A DNA stretch of 64,000 nucleotides from the NCBI RefSeq assembly GCF_003173335.1, contig NZ_QGMZ01000044.1, forward strand, positions 1 to 64,000. The letters run 5' to 3'. The position numbers were made by a program, and so were the translations under genes. The DNA is from Methanospirillum stamsii (GTDB lineage Archaea; Halobacteriota; Methanomicrobia; Methanomicrobiales; Methanospirillaceae). Position 1 is the stretch's first letter; each line of letters begins with the position of its first letter. The notes beneath the pieces are model-generated. The model made no database searches. It saw only the letters and a program-made list of their open reading frames with translations, and was not told the DNA's origin. Shown here in pieces: positions 39,235 through 46,737 of this stretch.

Positions 39235-39338
39235 AATACAAGATAGGATGACTCAGGAAATAGGTTTGTCGTAATATGCCGAATCAGAAATACATCAAAC
39301 GGTACTTATCTCATTACAGCGAACGCTCTCCGGTTATT

Positions 39339-39824
39339 ATGCATACACGGGTACCTTTCCATAAACAAAATAACATGGTCTGGTTATCTGTATTGCTGCT
39401 GGAGTTCGTATTATTTGTTTTTTTGTCCGGATGCGTGCAATCAAACACGGGCTATACGATAAAACCTGAGGCATTTGAGGTGTCTCCTGATGTGTATGCA
39501 GATGAGATGACGAGGGAAATTACCATGCCTCTTCATGGCACCATGCTTGTTTCATATCCCTGGTCACCGGAGGATGGAAGGTACTGGCGTGTCGGAGTTA
39601 CTGAAGGACTATATGTTACCGGTGATCGGTATGTCCCATCTCCTGCGGATATTCCTGTTGAAGTGTCCGGAACACGTGAATGGATGGTAAAAGCCATCGC
39701 CCCCGGAGAAAATACCTTTATTGGAACTCTGAGACCCCGAGGAAATTCATGGAATCAGGAGATAGTCCAACTGAAAATAGATGTTTTAATAACTGAAGAA
39801 AGTCCGGAGAGTGGAAATATATGA
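39339..39824 (+). CDS. Lipoprotein, possibly I42/chagasin-like
   Basis: About 161 residues from the ATG at 39339 (an in-frame start exists at 39276). A signal peptide ends in the lipobox LSGC. The mature part is a beta domain: EITMPLHGTMLVSYPWS, YWRVGVTEGLYV, then TREWMVKAIAPGENTFIGTL and VQLKIDVLI, resembling the chagasin-type inhibitor fold but without clear NPTTG or GxGG loops. The stop overlaps the phosphatase gene (ATGA), so the two are cotranslated; the lipoprotein might sense something outside for the phosphatase. Function inferred weakly. Confidence 0.6.
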   Translation: MHTRVPFHKQNNMVWLSVLLLEFVLFVFLSGCVQSNTGYTIKPEAFEVSPDVYADEMTREITMPLHGTMLVSYPWSPEDGRYWRVGVTEGLYVTGDRYVPSPADIPVEVSGTREWMVKAIAPGENTFIGTLRPRGNSWNQEIVQLKIDVLITEESPESGNI

Positions 39825-41950
39825 GGTTTGGAGTAGCGATAAAGCTCCTTTTGGTTATGCTTCTTCTGACCAGTATCATCTTTGTAGTCATTGGAGGAAT
39901 GTCCTGGATAATGATGGGAAATCTGGGAAACTATGCCACTGATTCAAGTCTTGCCCTTGGAGAGCAGGCAATTGGTGAAAGTACTAATGCCCTTGAAGAG
40001 GATGCTGAATCATATCTCCTGCGTCTTGCAACAGACCAGGCAGAAATCTCTGATATGGTCTTTGAGCGGATAACCTCTGAAATGAATGTCATCTATTCGG
40101 AAGGAAAAGAGGTCATATCTGGTACTGGTGCAACTCCTGAGAGATGGTATTTCCGTGATGAAAAACCCTCAAAACCAGGAGAAGTCGGGGTAGTTCATCT
40201 CCCGGAGGGAGTGTCTATTGATTCTGTCCGGGATGAGATTGAAAATTTGAGTTCATTCCAGTCATTATTTAATCCCCTTTTCCATGCAGACAATCGTCTG
40301 ACTGCTCTTTATATCGCTTCATCTTCAGGTCCGGTCCTCTTTTTTCCCTGGACTCCCCGGATTGAATCATCATTTGACGCCCGGATAAGGGGATGGTACC
40401 AGGAAGCACTCAGTCATGAAGGAATAGTCTGGTCAGACCCATACGTAGATGCACTTGGAAACGGGCTTACAATTACCTGTTCTAAAAGACTTGAAAACCC
40501 TGAACAAAACCTTACCTGGGTTATCGGGGCAGATATTACCATTGAAACAATTAATTACCGGATTATTACCACCCAGCTTGGAGAAGACGGATATGCGTTT
40601 CTCATTAATCAAAAGGGAGATGTGATATCAAGGCCTGGTCTTTCAGCCGGAAGCACCAGGTGGGATGAATCATATAACACGGAAAACTTCCTTGAGAGTT
40701 CGAATAGTGATCTCAGAAATATCACCCGTGATATGATTGCAGGGCTTTCGGGGGTTACCCGGTGCCGGTTCATGGAAGGGGAAAAATACATTGCATATGC
40801 ACCGGTGAAGAGTGTGGGATGGAGTATCGGACTTGTTGTTCCGGTTGAGGATATCATTGCTCCTGCACAAATTACCGGCGGTGTAATCCGGAATGCAAGT
40901 GAGGAGACCCATGCTCATATTACCGAGCAGATGGTATTTTTGCAGCATGTTCTGACAGTCAGTTTTATTCTGCTCTTTTTTGGAGTAATTGCGATTGCAA
41001 TATTCTTTTCCCGGTTCATTACCGGGCCTCTTCGAATTTTAAGCGAAGGGGTTAAAAAGATAGGTTCCGGTGACCTGCAGACCACGGTAGATATCACCTC
41101 TGGTGATGAATTTGAGGATCTGGCCGGAACTTTTAACCGGATGACTGCCGATCTTCGCAATTACGTTCTGGAACTTCGGAGAACTACCGCGGAAAAAGAG
41201 CGTTTCACCCGTGAACTTGAAATTGCTCAGGGGATACAACAAAGTTTCCTTCCGGATACCATTCCTGAAATACCCGGAATTGAACTTGCAGTATTTTCAA
41301 GTCCGGCCCTTGAAGTCGGAGGAGATTTTTATGATTTCATTCCGGTCGGAGATGATGAATGGGGGCTGGTAATCGCTGATGTAAGCGGAAAAGGTGTCCC
41401 TGCAGCCCTTTTTATGGCTCTTTCCAGAACACTTATCAGAGTTAGTACAACCTGGAAGAGTGATCCTGCAAGTGCCATAACAGAAGCGAATTCACTCATC
41501 TGTCGTGATTCCAAAACCAGCATGTTTGTAACACTCTTTTACCTGGTCATAGATTCGCAAAAGAGAGAGTTAACATACGTAAATGCAGGACATAATCCTC
41601 CACTTATGTTAACCCGGGAGAAAAAGAATGATATCACCCTCCTGAAAGCTGAAGGAATAGCCTTAGGCATTATAGATGGGATTGACCTTGGATCTGTGAC
41701 CGTCCGATTAAAAGAGGGAGATTTGGTTGCACTGTATACCGATGGTATAACCGAAGCAATGAATGGTGCAGGTGAAGAGTATGGAATGGATAGGTTCTCT
41801 GAAATTCTCCTGAAATGTCGTGATAAAAAACCTGATGAAATGATCGAGGATATCAGGGCATCGGTAAAGGAGTTTACCGGGACAACACCACAGTCTGATG
41901 ATATTACCCTGATTTTAATTAAAGCCGGTCAGGGGATGGGTGCCACCTGA
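39821..41950 (+). CDS. Membrane sensor serine phosphatase, RsbU/PP2C type
   Basis: 709 residues. TM1 (about 8-30), an extracellular double-Cache-like sensor (about 60-360, with WTPRIESSFDARIRGWYQEAL), TM2 (about 370-398), HAMP (about 398-455, PLRILSEGVKKIGSGDL) and a PP2C/SpoIIE phosphatase domain (about 485-705). The latter has the metal motifs GGDFYDFIPVG, IADVSGKGVPAALFMAL, YVNAGHNPPL and QSDDITLILIK. It would dephosphorylate a STAS protein such as the one encoded at 43741. Its 3' end overlaps the convergent MBL gene by 22 bp. Confidence 0.92.
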   Translation: MRFGVAIKLLLVMLLLTSIIFVVIGGMSWIMMGNLGNYATDSSLALGEQAIGESTNALEEDAESYLLRLATDQAEISDMVFERITSEMNVIYSEGKEVISGTGATPERWYFRDEKPSKPGEVGVVHLPEGVSIDSVRDEIENLSSFQSLFNPLFHADNRLTALYIASSSGPVLFFPWTPRIESSFDARIRGWYQEALSHEGIVWSDPYVDALGNGLTITCSKRLENPEQNLTWVIGADITIETINYRIITTQLGEDGYAFLINQKGDVISRPGLSAGSTRWDESYNTENFLESSNSDLRNITRDMIAGLSGVTRCRFMEGEKYIAYAPVKSVGWSIGLVVPVEDIIAPAQITGGVIRNASEETHAHITEQMVFLQHVLTVSFILLFFGVIAIAIFFSRFITGPLRILSEGVKKIGSGDLQTTVDITSGDEFEDLAGTFNRMTADLRNYVLELRRTTAEKERFTRELEIAQGIQQSFLPDTIPEIPGIELAVFSSPALEVGGDFYDFIPVGDDEWGLVIADVSGKGVPAALFMALSRTLIRVSTTWKSDPASAITEANSLICRDSKTSMFVTLFYLVIDSQKRELTYVNAGHNPPLMLTREKKNDITLLKAEGIALGIIDGIDLGSVTVRLKEGDLVALYTDGITEAMNGAGEEYGMDRFSEILLKCRDKKPDEMIEDIRASVKEFTGTTPQSDDITLILIKAGQGMGAT

Positions 41951-43671
41951 AACGCTAGTATTATCTCTTCTTTTTCTCTTGAGGGAATTTTTTTAACCTT
42001 CCCTCCTGTATATCCCGCAGACCTGAGTAAAGATGGGGAGAGAGGGAGTTCTGGATGGCAGCCAGTATCCGGTGTTATAGAAATAATTGCATCATTTGCA
42101 TGATATGAGATAAAGAAAGTAATTTTCCGGGCATTGTAGGTTTCATAATAATCAATAATCGCATGAAACAGATCAGATAGCCGCATCGAATCAGCGTAAA
42201 TAAAAACCTGATTTTCGGGTAGGTTTATTGCAATTTCTGCATTTGCATAGCACTGGTTTTCTGAAAGTCTTAAGATAAGATTTCTCCGATAGGCTTTTTC
42301 ATCATCAATTGATTCTAATAATTCATCATCGCTTATCCGGGATGTTATCCGGGTTTTTCGAGAGTTCCTGATAAGATCCACCGGATCTAGCGCTGTTATG
42401 GTTGCAGAAGGAATAATTCCCTGAAGAGTGCTTAAAAAATCTACGCACAGGTTCTCACATCTCCTGAGCATTGTTCCATCGACAATCCATTCCATCTCAT
42501 GTTTTGGAAGGCATGAACGGATTTTCTGGAGAGTTTGGTGTATTCTCAGGACAACTTCTATATCTTTCTTTTTACCTTCTGTATATGCCTTGTAAAATGC
42601 ATTAAAATTTGAAAGCAACTGATCAATTTCATCGTCCCGGATAATCTCTGCAAGTCTTTCAGCAATTTCATGTTCTTCCAGTTCATCAAGATGGTACCGA
42701 AGAACCATCAACTTTCCAGCAATAACAGGAAAAAGCCGGTGAGCTTCATCAATAAGGTCCATACCATGGAGCATTGCGATATCCACCCGTTTTCTGTCAA
42801 ATACTCCAACATGCGGATTGGCTTTTAATTCCTTCTCGCTGTTATCCAGAATTTTATGAAGCTGTGCGGGAATGATGGCATTTCCATGTCCGGTGAGAAT
42901 CACTGATACCGGTCTTTTTTTGAGTATCCATCTGACCCGCTCCAGGGTTTTGTCAAGTTCACGGGGATTGTACCCCACTATCCCCGCTACCCCGGGATTT
43001 GTTGCAAAAGGAATATCTCCGACATGTATCATTTTTCCTGCCTGAATTGCCATGCTGTCAGGGGAATGACCTGGTACCTCCCAGAAAATTAGTTCCTGTT
43101 TATCCGGAAACACGAGCCTGATGCTTCTTAATGAAATTGTATCCTGAATCGTGTAGAGTTCTGTAATATATGAAAAACCAGAGAGTAACTCTTCGATTTT
43201 TATTTTTTCGTCGGGATTTTCAGAGAAAAGAGGGATATCTATTCTGAACGGAGGGGCAGGAAGATCTACAAGAGACGACTGGATATATGTCGCATCTCCA
43301 TCCATCAGGGGTTTTTCTGCATGGGCATGACATACATAGACGGTATTTCCTACTGCTTCTATTCTTCTGTCAACAAGTCCCTGGTAGATGTGATCAAAAT
43401 GCGCATGCCCGAAGATGATAATGACCGGTTTTTCTTTGTCGATGGTTTTAGAAATAAGGGTTGAATACACGGTGTTTGTAATATCCTGCCTGTTCCCGGT
43501 ATCGATAACTATCAGGTAATCTCCGATATTCAGAATAAAAACATTTGAGCAACTCACGTCCGGCTTCCTGATAATGGGGAATATTCTGGCATTTTCCATT
43601 CCTGGTACTTCCTGCCAGGTTTCATTCAGGAGCACGTTATTTTCTCCCTCCGGAGACAATCGTATTTTCAC
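41929..43671 (-). CDS. Metallo-beta-lactamase protein with degenerate kinase-like C-terminus
   Basis: 580 residues. N-terminal metallo-beta-lactamase domain (about 35-290): HAHFDH at 89-94 gives the metal ligands, with further ligands in VPGHSPDS (about 201), HVGDIPF (about 219) and LTGHGNAI (about 260). The middle (290-420) is helical. The last ~130 residues read like a GHKL ATPase remnant (ENQVFIYADSMRLSDLFHAI; ITPDTGCHPELPL; AGYTGGKVKKI) without a convincing N-box Asn. It lies between a PP2C phosphatase and STAS/kinase genes, suggesting a signalling role. Substrate unknown. Confidence 0.8.
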   Translation of the reverse strand: MKIRLSPEGENNVLLNETWQEVPGMENARIFPIIRKPDVSCSNVFILNIGDYLIVIDTGNRQDITNTVYSTLISKTIDKEKPVIIIFGHAHFDHIYQGLVDRRIEAVGNTVYVCHAHAEKPLMDGDATYIQSSLVDLPAPPFRIDIPLFSENPDEKIKIEELLSGFSYITELYTIQDTISLRSIRLVFPDKQELIFWEVPGHSPDSMAIQAGKMIHVGDIPFATNPGVAGIVGYNPRELDKTLERVRWILKKRPVSVILTGHGNAIIPAQLHKILDNSEKELKANPHVGVFDRKRVDIAMLHGMDLIDEAHRLFPVIAGKLMVLRYHLDELEEHEIAERLAEIIRDDEIDQLLSNFNAFYKAYTEGKKKDIEVVLRIHQTLQKIRSCLPKHEMEWIVDGTMLRRCENLCVDFLSTLQGIIPSATITALDPVDLIRNSRKTRITSRISDDELLESIDDEKAYRRNLILRLSENQCYANAEIAINLPENQVFIYADSMRLSDLFHAIIDYYETYNARKITFFISYHANDAIISITPDTGCHPELPLSPSLLRSAGYTGGKVKKIPSREKEEIILAFQVAPIP

Positions 43672-43740
43672 AAATCATTAATTCTATGCAAATGGAGTTT
43701 TGATCATACATCATAGTAATTACAACAGGAACTGAGTTAC

Positions 43741-44091
43741 ATGGAATGCAATCTCAATATAACTGAACGGGAAATTTCCGGGATCACCATTCTGGATATA
43801 TCCGGAAGGGTCGATGCTGCAACCTCATCAAAAATGGAAGAAGAATTAACAAAAAAAGTTGATGCCGGTGTTATCAATATCATCATGAATATGGAGAATC
43901 TGAGTTATATCAGCAGTTCAGGTCTTCGTGTTATCCTGGCCTCACTGAAAAAAGTCAAATCCGCTGGCGGGAAGATTGCACTTTTACAATTACAACCCGG
44001 ACCTGCAGAGGTTTTTAAGATGACCGGATTTGATAGATTATTCCCCATCTGTTCCTCAATGGAAGGGGCTGTAGAGCAGTTTAGTGCGTGA
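43741..44091 (+). CDS. STAS-domain anti-sigma-factor-antagonist-like protein
   Basis: 116 residues, a single STAS domain. GRVDAATSSKMEEEL and NLSYISSSGLRVILASL contain the serine at the helix start that is phosphorylated in SpoIIAA/RsbV; the C-terminal part is FKMTGFDRLFPI. In bacteria it is dephosphorylated by an RsbU-type PP2C and phosphorylated by an RsbW-type kinase; both partners are encoded here. There is no sigma factor in archaea, so the output must differ. Confidence 0.93.
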   Translation: MECNLNITEREISGITILDISGRVDAATSSKMEEELTKKVDAGVINIIMNMENLSYISSSGLRVILASLKKVKSAGGKIALLQLQPGPAEVFKMTGFDRLFPICSSMEGAVEQFSA

Positions 44092-44117
44092 GATAATCTT
44101 ATTCCGATAGCGCATAC

Positions 44118-44531
44118 ATGGCAACACACCAGATCGAACTATCAGATCCGAAAAAAGCAGTACCAATTTTGTCTGAGTTTTTATCTGACATACTGGCAGA
44201 AGAGCAAGTTCCCTTTGAAATTGAAAATGCAATGCAGCTCTGTGCTGAAGAAGCGGTTGTAAACATCTTCAAACATGGGTACAAAGGTGCCGAGGGGCCT
44301 GTCAGGGTCAGATTTACTTTGGATGATAACCGGGTGATCCTGGAGATAGAAGATGAAGCACCCTTTTTCAATCCACTAACGCTCCCTTCTCCTGATGTGG
44401 ATGCAGAACTTGATGAGCGCAAGATTGGAGGTCTAGGGGTATACCTGATTCGTTCACTGATGGATGATGTCAGATACCAGGAAACACCCAAAGGCAACTG
44501 CCTGGTCATGGAGAAATCCTTTTCTGGGTGA
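44118..44531 (+). CDS. RsbW-like serine kinase (GHKL ATPase)
   Basis: 137 residues, HATPase_c family. N-box EEAVVNIFKHGY, G1 EIEDEAPFFNPL, G2 IGGLGVYLIRSLMDDVRYQ, as in SpoIIAB/RsbW. Would phosphorylate the STAS protein encoded 27 bp upstream and bind an unknown target. Not preceded by a phosphorelay domain. Confidence 0.92.
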   Translation: MATHQIELSDPKKAVPILSEFLSDILAEEQVPFEIENAMQLCAEEAVVNIFKHGYKGAEGPVRVRFTLDDNRVILEIEDEAPFFNPLTLPSPDVDAELDERKIGGLGVYLIRSLMDDVRYQETPKGNCLVMEKSFSG

Positions 44532-45568: not shown

Positions 45569-45827
45569 GACATGGATCGGATTGTTACGTTCCTTCTCTT
45601 ACTGGTTTCAGCAGTTCTGCTGGCACCCGGATGTATTGCAGACGAACAGGCAGTTTCAGAAGTAACTGAAATTGTACCGGAAGTAACCGTTACTGAAGAA
45701 GTAACTGAGACTGTCACTGAGGAAGTCACTGCAGAAGTTCCAGCATTCGATGTAACTGCTGACATGAACACCACTGCTCTGAATATGACCCAGAATCAGA
45801 TTGTCCTTGTAACCCTCCCGGAGACCT
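45569..45827 (+). repeat. Duplicated segment, copy 1 (signal peptide and linker)
   Basis: This stretch of about 260 bp is nearly identical to 46246-46501; I count only about ten substitutions. It covers the start codon, signal peptide, acidic linker and first strand of the inhibitor genes, and identity ends abruptly where the inhibitory loops begin. Confidence 0.85.
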
Positions 45828-46042
45828 CCGGATATGAGTGGAATACAACCGTTTCAGAAGGTCTTACCCTCCTGAATGAGACCCACGTTGATGCAGCCGA
45901 GGGTGATGAGAGCGCAACAGCTTTACACCAGATGTTTGTTCAGGCTGTAGCAGCTGGAGAACAGACCATCAAGAGCGTTGAGCAGAAGGCAGATTCAGAA
46001 GAGACTGGAAGCGAATACACTCTTACTATCCTTGTAGAGTAA
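45572..46042 (+). CDS. Chagasin-like (I42) lipoprotein lacking inhibitor loops
   Basis: 156 residues. Lipoprotein signal with lipobox APGC, a linker rich in Thr, Glu and Val (EEVTETVTEEVTAEVP), and a beta domain of the I42 family. Compared with the copy at 46249 the NPTTGY loop is reduced to TSGY and the GVGG loop is missing, so cysteine-protease inhibition is doubtful. It precedes its paralogue by about 200 bp. Confidence 0.82.
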   Translation: MDRIVTFLLLLVSAVLLAPGCIADEQAVSEVTEIVPEVTVTEEVTETVTEEVTAEVPAFDVTADMNTTALNMTQNQIVLVTLPETSGYEWNTTVSEGLTLLNETHVDAAEGDESATALHQMFVQAVAAGEQTIKSVEQKADSEETGSEYTLTILVE

Positions 46043-46245: not shown

Positions 46246-46501
46246 GACATGGATCGGATTGTAGCGTTCCTTCTCTTACTGGTTTCAGCAGTTCTGCTGG
46301 CACCCGGATGTATTGCAGACGAACAGACAGTTTCAGAAGCAACTGAAATTGTACCGGAAGTAACCGTTACTGAAGAAGTAACTGAGACTGTCACTGAGGA
46401 AGTCACTGCAGAAGTTCCAGCATTCAATGTTACTGCTGACATGAACACCACTGCTCTGAACATGACCGAGAATCAGGTTGTCCTTGTAACCCTCCCGGAA
46501 A
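46246..46501 (+). repeat. Duplicated segment, copy 2
   Basis: Partner of 45569-45827. The near identity in the leader and linker against strong divergence downstream fits recent duplication or gene conversion. Confidence 0.85.
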
Positions 46502-46737
46502 ACCCGACCACCGGCTACACCTGGAATGTTACCCTTTCTGAGGGACTTACCCTGGTAAATGATACTTACACCCAGGACGCAGCAGAAGAAGGTATGACTG
46601 GCGTTGGCGGTGTCCACGAATGGTTCGTTCAGGCTGTCGGAGCCGGAGAACAGTCATTCTTTGGTATCGAAAAGCAGGAATGGGAAGAAGAGACTGGCAA
46701 CGAAACCACCTATACTCTTAACATTCTCGTTGAGTAA
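46249..46737 (+). CDS. Chagasin-like (I42) protease inhibitor lipoprotein
   Basis: 162 residues. Same signal, lipobox APGC and linker as the preceding gene, then a complete chagasin-type domain: LPENPTTGYTWNV (L2 loop), MTGVGGVHEWFVQAVGAGEQ (L4 loop GVGG, and a Trp-containing strand). Chagasins block papain-like cysteine proteases; related archaeal and bacterial members are assumed to act on cell-surface proteases. The third loop (RPW) is not clear. Confidence 0.87.
   Translation: MDRIVAFLLLLVSAVLLAPGCIADEQTVSEATEIVPEVTVTEEVTETVTEEVTAEVPAFNVTADMNTTALNMTENQVVLVTLPENPTTGYTWNVTLSEGLTLVNDTYTQDAAEEGMTGVGGVHEWFVQAVGAGEQSFFGIEKQEWEEETGNETTYTLNILVE

Follow-up and report, generated by a model that had tools for sequence, protein, structure and literature searches.

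A metallo-β-lactamase protein with a dead histidine-kinase core as a candidate target of an archaeal partner switch

Organization of the Locus and Integrity of the Switch Genes

The window, i.e., the whole 64,000-nucleotide stretch of DNA analyzed, is part of contig 39 in the 3.74-Mb genome of a methanogenic archaeon whose nearest kin is Methanospirillum. It harbors a row of four genes coding for a phosphatase (+), a metallo-β-lactamase (MBL) protein (−), a STAS protein (+), and a kinase (+), as listed below.

39821..41950 (+): membrane-bound switch phosphatase with dCache sensor, HAMP, and SpoIIE/RsbU-type PP2C, 709 aa
41929..43671 (−): ORF of the MBL-pseudo-histidine-kinase protein, 580 aa from GTG 43671; probable start GTG 43635, 568 aa
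43741..44091 (+): STAS protein, RsbV/SpoIIAA type, 116 aa
43915..43917 (+): S59 of STAS, the predicted phosphorylation site (Y56-I-S-S59)
44118..44531 (+): serine kinase of the RsbW/SpoIIAB type, 137 aa, with N box E45/N49/H53 and an intact GGLG box

The PP2C and MBL genes are placed tail to tail with a 22-base overlap (41929-41950), and the MBL gene diverges from the STAS gene. An earlier note, made from the sequence, had described an RsbU-type PP2C with a Cache sensor and HAMP, a STAS protein with a phosphorylatable Ser, and an adjoining RsbW-type kinase, with an MBL protein lying within the set; the four-gene row was confirmed, the MBL gene being on the opposite strand, and domain searches bore out each of the three switch proteins. 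The phosphatase matched the Pfam models dCache_1 (6.7e-17), HAMP (1.8e-13), and SpoIIE (2.9e-53, 181 bits), and its motifs EVGGDF, DVSGKG, YTDGiTEA, and QsDDIT were kept in 38 aligned neighbours; a SpoIIE domain with the metal-binding Asp motifs places it with the RsbU/SpoIIE phosphatases. The STAS protein exceeded the cut-offs of both Pfam STAS (4.3e-22, 78.3 bits against 22.6) and the anti-sigma antagonist model TIGR00377 (5.1e-25, 87.4 bits against 53.45). Its S59 is the predicted phosphorylated serine, as it was invariant in 107 aligned STAS domains from neighbouring or related loci, in keeping with the RsbV/SpoIIAA type, and has the same spacing from an aromatic residue as in SypA, where Ser56 lies three residues past Phe53 (PMC10120452). 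The kinase carries HATPase_c_2 (6.1e-31, 107.5 bits) with the N-box Glu and Asn and the G boxes of the RsbW/SpoIIAB type, E45, N49, and GGLG being invariant in 50 aligned sequences from related loci; RsbW models matched it at 6e-15, below the RsbW and SpoIIAB equivalog cut-offs. Judged by these motifs, the parts of the switch look able to work. Across the genome as a whole, five SpoIIE domains and three matches to STAS were counted, but only one kinase that is clearly of the stand-alone RsbW type.

Three chagasin-family proteins (PF09394, inhibitor I42) are encoded around the switch genes, at 39276-39824, 45572-46042, and 46249-46737. The first of these genes shares four bases (ATGA) with the phosphatase start, and the latter two are tandem near-copies, a NPTTGY stretch being missing from one. 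The four nearest loci of Methanospirillum type (L067-L070) likewise have the switch flanked by I42 genes. An Rfam scan of the window revealed nothing beyond two tRNAs.

Domain Architecture of the MBL Protein

The features of the MBL protein, all on the complementary strand, are as follows.

43647..43652 (−): Shine-Dalgarno-like GGAGGG for GTG 43635
42802..43617 (−): metallo-β-lactamase domain, residues about 19-290 (PF00753 and Foldseek)
43390..43407 (−): metal motif H-A-H-F-D-H, residues 89-94
42346..42795 (−): DHp-like helical region lacking the phospho-His, residues about 293-442, with the aGRL motif at 318-321
41941..42300 (−): degenerate GHKL/CA domain that has lost the N box as well as the ATP lid, residues about 458-577

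GTG 43635 is more likely to be the start codon than GTG 43671, owing to the GGAGGG 10 nt upstream of it; the MBL proteins of relatives likewise start a few residues ahead of a conserved Trp. The amino-terminal half matched Lactamase_B (PF00753) at 6.3e-8, and the full-length model (pLDDT 89.7) gave Foldseek matches to MBL structures at E 2e-9. All seven ligands (H89, H91, D93, H94, H202, D219, and H262) were invariant in 115 sequences, down to about 25% identity, and correspond to the HxHxDH...H...D...H set of MBL-superfamily hydrolases. The motif HxExDH is the ligand signature of flavodiiron/ODP oxygen sensors; here, the invariant H91 occupies the position where its Glu would be expected.

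The C-terminal half showed no Pfam match. As only MBL structures were found among the best 50 Foldseek matches of the full-length model, this half was modelled apart with AlphaFold (pLDDT 88.2), and the best matches were then all DHp-CA structures of histidine kinases (5c93, 4.0e-7; YycG/WalK, CpxA, and HK853). Profile-profile comparison by hhalign with the CA domains of histidine kinases from the same loci was in agreement (probability 83%, E 8.9e-6). A search of PDB sequences with the C-terminal profile (hmmsearch) gave nothing significant, with weak histidine-kinase CA matches on top (0.03). Among the 115 family members, the phospho-His position of the DHp region carries T, A, P, or S, no His being conserved there, and the N-box Asn was absent. 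The ATP-lid region was likewise absent in the alignment. The C-terminal half is therefore a pseudo-histidine-kinase, i.e., a DHp-CA core that has lost the phospho-His and the ATP-binding boxes, and the degraded GHKL-like domain proposed in the earlier note is thus confirmed. A decayed RsbW was also considered for this half and rejected, as the profile comparison with RsbW gave no match (probability 2.7%). Spo0B and ChpT are pseudo-histidine-kinase phosphotransferases of the same DHp-CA fold that likewise do not bind ATP; however, they keep the phospho-His, which has no conserved counterpart in the 115 sequences.

In four genomes of the genus Methanospirillum, the same pseudo-histidine-kinase domain was present in a second protein of about 1168 aa, which in the copies read also has 5TM-5TMR_LYT membrane receptor parts. 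In such relatives (L071:2-2878 and L072:16888-19500), some 11-14 kb separate its gene and those of the switch.

Co-occurrence and Genomic Arrangement of the MBL and Switch Genes

The MBL protein was detected in 118 of 232 genomes of Methanomicrobiales. Presence was counted in the 135 genomes of the order that are at least 90% complete, of which 96 contained RsbW, 96 a SpoIIE-type PP2C, and 77 the MBL protein. RsbW was present in all 77 MBL genomes, and the MBL protein in 0 of the 39 genomes devoid of RsbW (Fisher p 7e-20, which is overstated since the genomes are related and the counts non-independent). Nineteen genomes had RsbW without the MBL protein, and in three genomes of one genus (g31) the MBL gene lies 0.8-1.9 Mb from the phosphatase/STAS/kinase trio; hence, the switch must also act on other targets. 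Another methanogen family of the same phylum, f22, had the domain in 24 of 50 genomes. The collection-wide scan used one motif and so is not a census, and the genus labels of related genomes are likely assignments.

Among the 77 genomes, the distance between MBL and RsbW was within 2 kb in 28, within 5 kb in a further 9, within 20 kb in 15, and within 50 kb in 2; it was larger in 5, and the two genes were on different contigs in 18. RsbW was thus within 5 kb in 37/77 and within 20 kb in 52/77, the chance expectation for 5 kb in a 2.5-Mb genome being about half a percent. For STAS, the count covered 68 distinct MBL genes that had 5 kb of sequence to either side: STAS was fused to the MBL protein in 3 and within 500 bp in 40 (together 43/68), and within 8 kb in 60. 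Such figures come from a set in which some loci were chosen for holding the MBL gene and contig ends hide neighbours.

The arrangement itself varies. In Methanoregula, STAS precedes MBL with overlapping ends; in Methanolinea, MBL precedes STAS or the two are fused; in Methanospirillum, they are divergent; in f22, MBL diverges from either a STAS-PP2C-RsbW row or fused PP2C-RsbW; and in Methanoculleus, STAS lies 3-6 kb upstream, with RsbW mostly 12-20 kb away. The one-protein MBL-pseudo-histidine-kinase-STAS fusions of Methanolinea keep the phosphorylatable Ser. In the STAS tree, the fused forms had one origin (97/85), and the STAS near MBL in Methanoculleus joined the MBL-linked STAS group of Methanoregula with moderate support (91/83). 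The complete trio was found beside MBL in 14 of 24 f22 loci, PP2C and RsbW being fused in some. So many different gene orders indicate that the genes were not inherited as one block; unless the partners share a function, it is hard to see why they stayed close while the locus was rebuilt again and again. Outside the trio, no family was commoner than the MBL protein in the 6 kb around RsbW (61 of 102 loci, a sample partly picked by MBL), and no further gene family was seen next to the trio in both of the archaeal families. The association between MBL and the switch is close to certain; the earlier note had suggested looking for recurrence of the MBL protein with rsb-like genes, and both the repeated adjacency and the fusions provide it.

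The PP2C-RsbW fusions beside MBL in f22 were located at L179:9667-13086, L257:2834-5917, and L273:2937-7136. The first has the order CHASE4-HAMP-PAS-SpoIIE-HATPase_c_2, and these sensor fusions are followed by two STAS genes. In Methanoculleus (L123:4224-7130), an apparent DASS-type transporter gene and a phenylacetate-CoA-ligase-like gene, as read from the ORFs, lie between the MBL-linked STAS and MBL genes on the same strand; they offered no clue to the substrate.

Comparison With Known Partner-Switching Systems

In bacteria, the phosphatase/STAS/kinase switch frees sigma factors, of which archaea have none. Like RsbU/RsbV/RsbW of Bacillus, the present locus combines a phosphatase, a phosphorylatable STAS protein, and a GHKL serine kinase, but it has no sigma factor and its proteins stay below the RsbW and SpoIIAB/SpoIIAA equivalog cut-offs. 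A SpoIIAA/SpoIIAB/SpoIIE-like trio in Methanomicrobiales was published in 2009 for M. marisnigri, M. labreanum, and M. hungatei, where its target was declared undeterminable and the trio was described as confined to the order (Anderson et al., 2009; PMC2686161). The three switch genes are the same as those described here, whereas neither a target nor the MBL protein was named in that study; the present analysis adds the MBL link and the presence of the trio in f22. A search of open-access full text retrieved no paper linking the trio or a partner switch to an MBL protein. Hence, of the interpretation offered in the earlier note, the complete archaeal set, the missing sigma factor, and the co-occurrence of MBL stand, but the trio was already known; the MBL protein as its fourth part appears to be new.

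Several STAS-type proteins drive an enzyme, namely, a diguanylate cyclase, as in SiaC-SiaD, HsbA-HsbD, and BgrV-BgrR (PMC8457831). In SiaABCD and HsbR/HsbA/HsbD of Pseudomonas, a phosphatase, a kinase, and a STAS-type protein act on it by direct binding with no sigma release (PMC8457831; PMC5085249). There, the target is the cyclase and SiaC is a DUF1987 protein, whereas here the putative target is a metallohydrolase with a dead histidine-kinase core.

Proposed Role of the MBL Protein

Among candidates for the missing target of the switch, the MBL protein is a strong one. A four-part partner-switching module in which an enzyme takes the place of the sigma factor as output, the STAS protein gating the metallohydrolase via the pseudo-histidine-kinase half, has in our estimate slightly better than an even chance of being correct. 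In such a module, a signal sensed by dCache (by CHASE4 and PAS sensors in relatives) would set the activity of the PP2C phosphatase, and the opposing action of phosphatase and RsbW-type kinase, as their intact motifs suggest, would set the phosphorylation of Ser59. In one phosphorylation state, most likely the unphosphorylated one by analogy with SiaC-SiaD, STAS would bind the pseudo-histidine-kinase half, and docking may activate or shut off the adjoining metallohydrolase domain. GHKL kinases are docking partners of STAS proteins, so that a catalysis-free kinase fold is a plausible docking site. All function assignments rest on sequence and predicted structure, from which we infer the docking, its dependence on phosphorylation, and the gating of the hydrolase, as well as the interaction and its direction (target or sensor). 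Several observations weigh against a target role: the sensor-like place of the MBL domain, the g31 genomes with MBL far from the trio, the 19 genomes having RsbW but no MBL, and a Geobacter copy whose operon contains no STAS gene.

What the archaeal anti-sigma-type proteins regulate was left open by Anderson et al. (2009). As a candidate target, an MBL protein that is confined to genomes with the switch, adjoins it in two families, and forms one protein with STAS in some species makes this question directly testable. That the switch gates the metallohydrolase directly, with STAS docked on the dead kinase core, and that this is the missing target of those proteins is put forward tentatively, its chances falling just short of even. 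If true, the few enzymes controlled by STAS switches would include a metallohydrolase, and the pseudo-histidine-kinase would serve as a docking part, a kinase fold being used in a new way as the receiver of a phospho-switch.

The MBL protein could instead be an input, its MBL domain binding a metal or metabolite and the dead kinase core relaying this state to STAS or RsbW in a stressosome-like manner; we regard this as unlikely and rate the target role above it. The domain order is sensor-like: the MBL domain sits at the sensor position of a histidine kinase, where the 1168-aa relative, encoded some 11-14 kb away from the switch, carries its 5TM receptor, which suits a sensor role. RsbR has a sensor-STAS layout, which the MBL-STAS fusion resembles, and sensor-STAS proteins feed stressosomes. 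However, the phosphatases already have Cache, CHASE4, or PAS sensors, the f22 loci would then hold no other widely recurrent candidate output, and the ligands are of the hydrolase type and not those of the oxygen sensors.

Less probable still is that RsbW or STAS acts elsewhere, for example on a general transcription factor or on STAS-X, a protein of 430 aa, with the MBL gene merely co-expressed. The 19 genomes having RsbW without MBL agree with this, and STAS-X adjoins RsbW in 32 of 102 loci, as one clade (98/83). STAS-X was not seen, however, in those loci of Methanospirillum, Methanolinea, and f22 that were inspected, and co-expression alone explains neither the MBL-STAS fusion nor the retention of MBL through many gene orders. 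STAS-X proteins (420-450 aa; L132:918-2225, L047:9153-10418, and about 30 other loci) consist of an N-terminal STAS domain and a ∼320-aa domain without a Pfam match; they adjoin RsbW in Methanoregula-type and g31 genomes and form a second candidate target of the switch. A classical switch releasing an unrecognised sigma-like protein is very improbable: the trio is motif-complete, but Sigma70_r2 was absent from the genome and ten relatives (11 genomes; the control was positive in ten bacteria), and the archaeal sigma-region-4-like proteins are without regions 2 and 3 (Anderson et al., 2009; PMC2686161).

Bacterial Copies of the MBL Protein

Two bacterial copies were met, in an Omnitrophota (L138) and a Geobacter (L160) assembly, the domain being found in 1 of 244 genomes of the bacterial class searched. 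The Geobacter copy (L160:4623-11158) belongs to a histidine kinase/NtrC operon that has no STAS gene and comprises a hybrid histidine kinase, an NtrC-type sigma-54 activator, the MBL-pseudo-histidine-kinase, and a phospholipase-D-like gene. In the Omnitrophota assembly (L138:7671-9740), a STAS gene lies about 12 bases before the MBL-pseudo-histidine-kinase gene. Misbinning was set aside for both, as their neighbours look bacterial.
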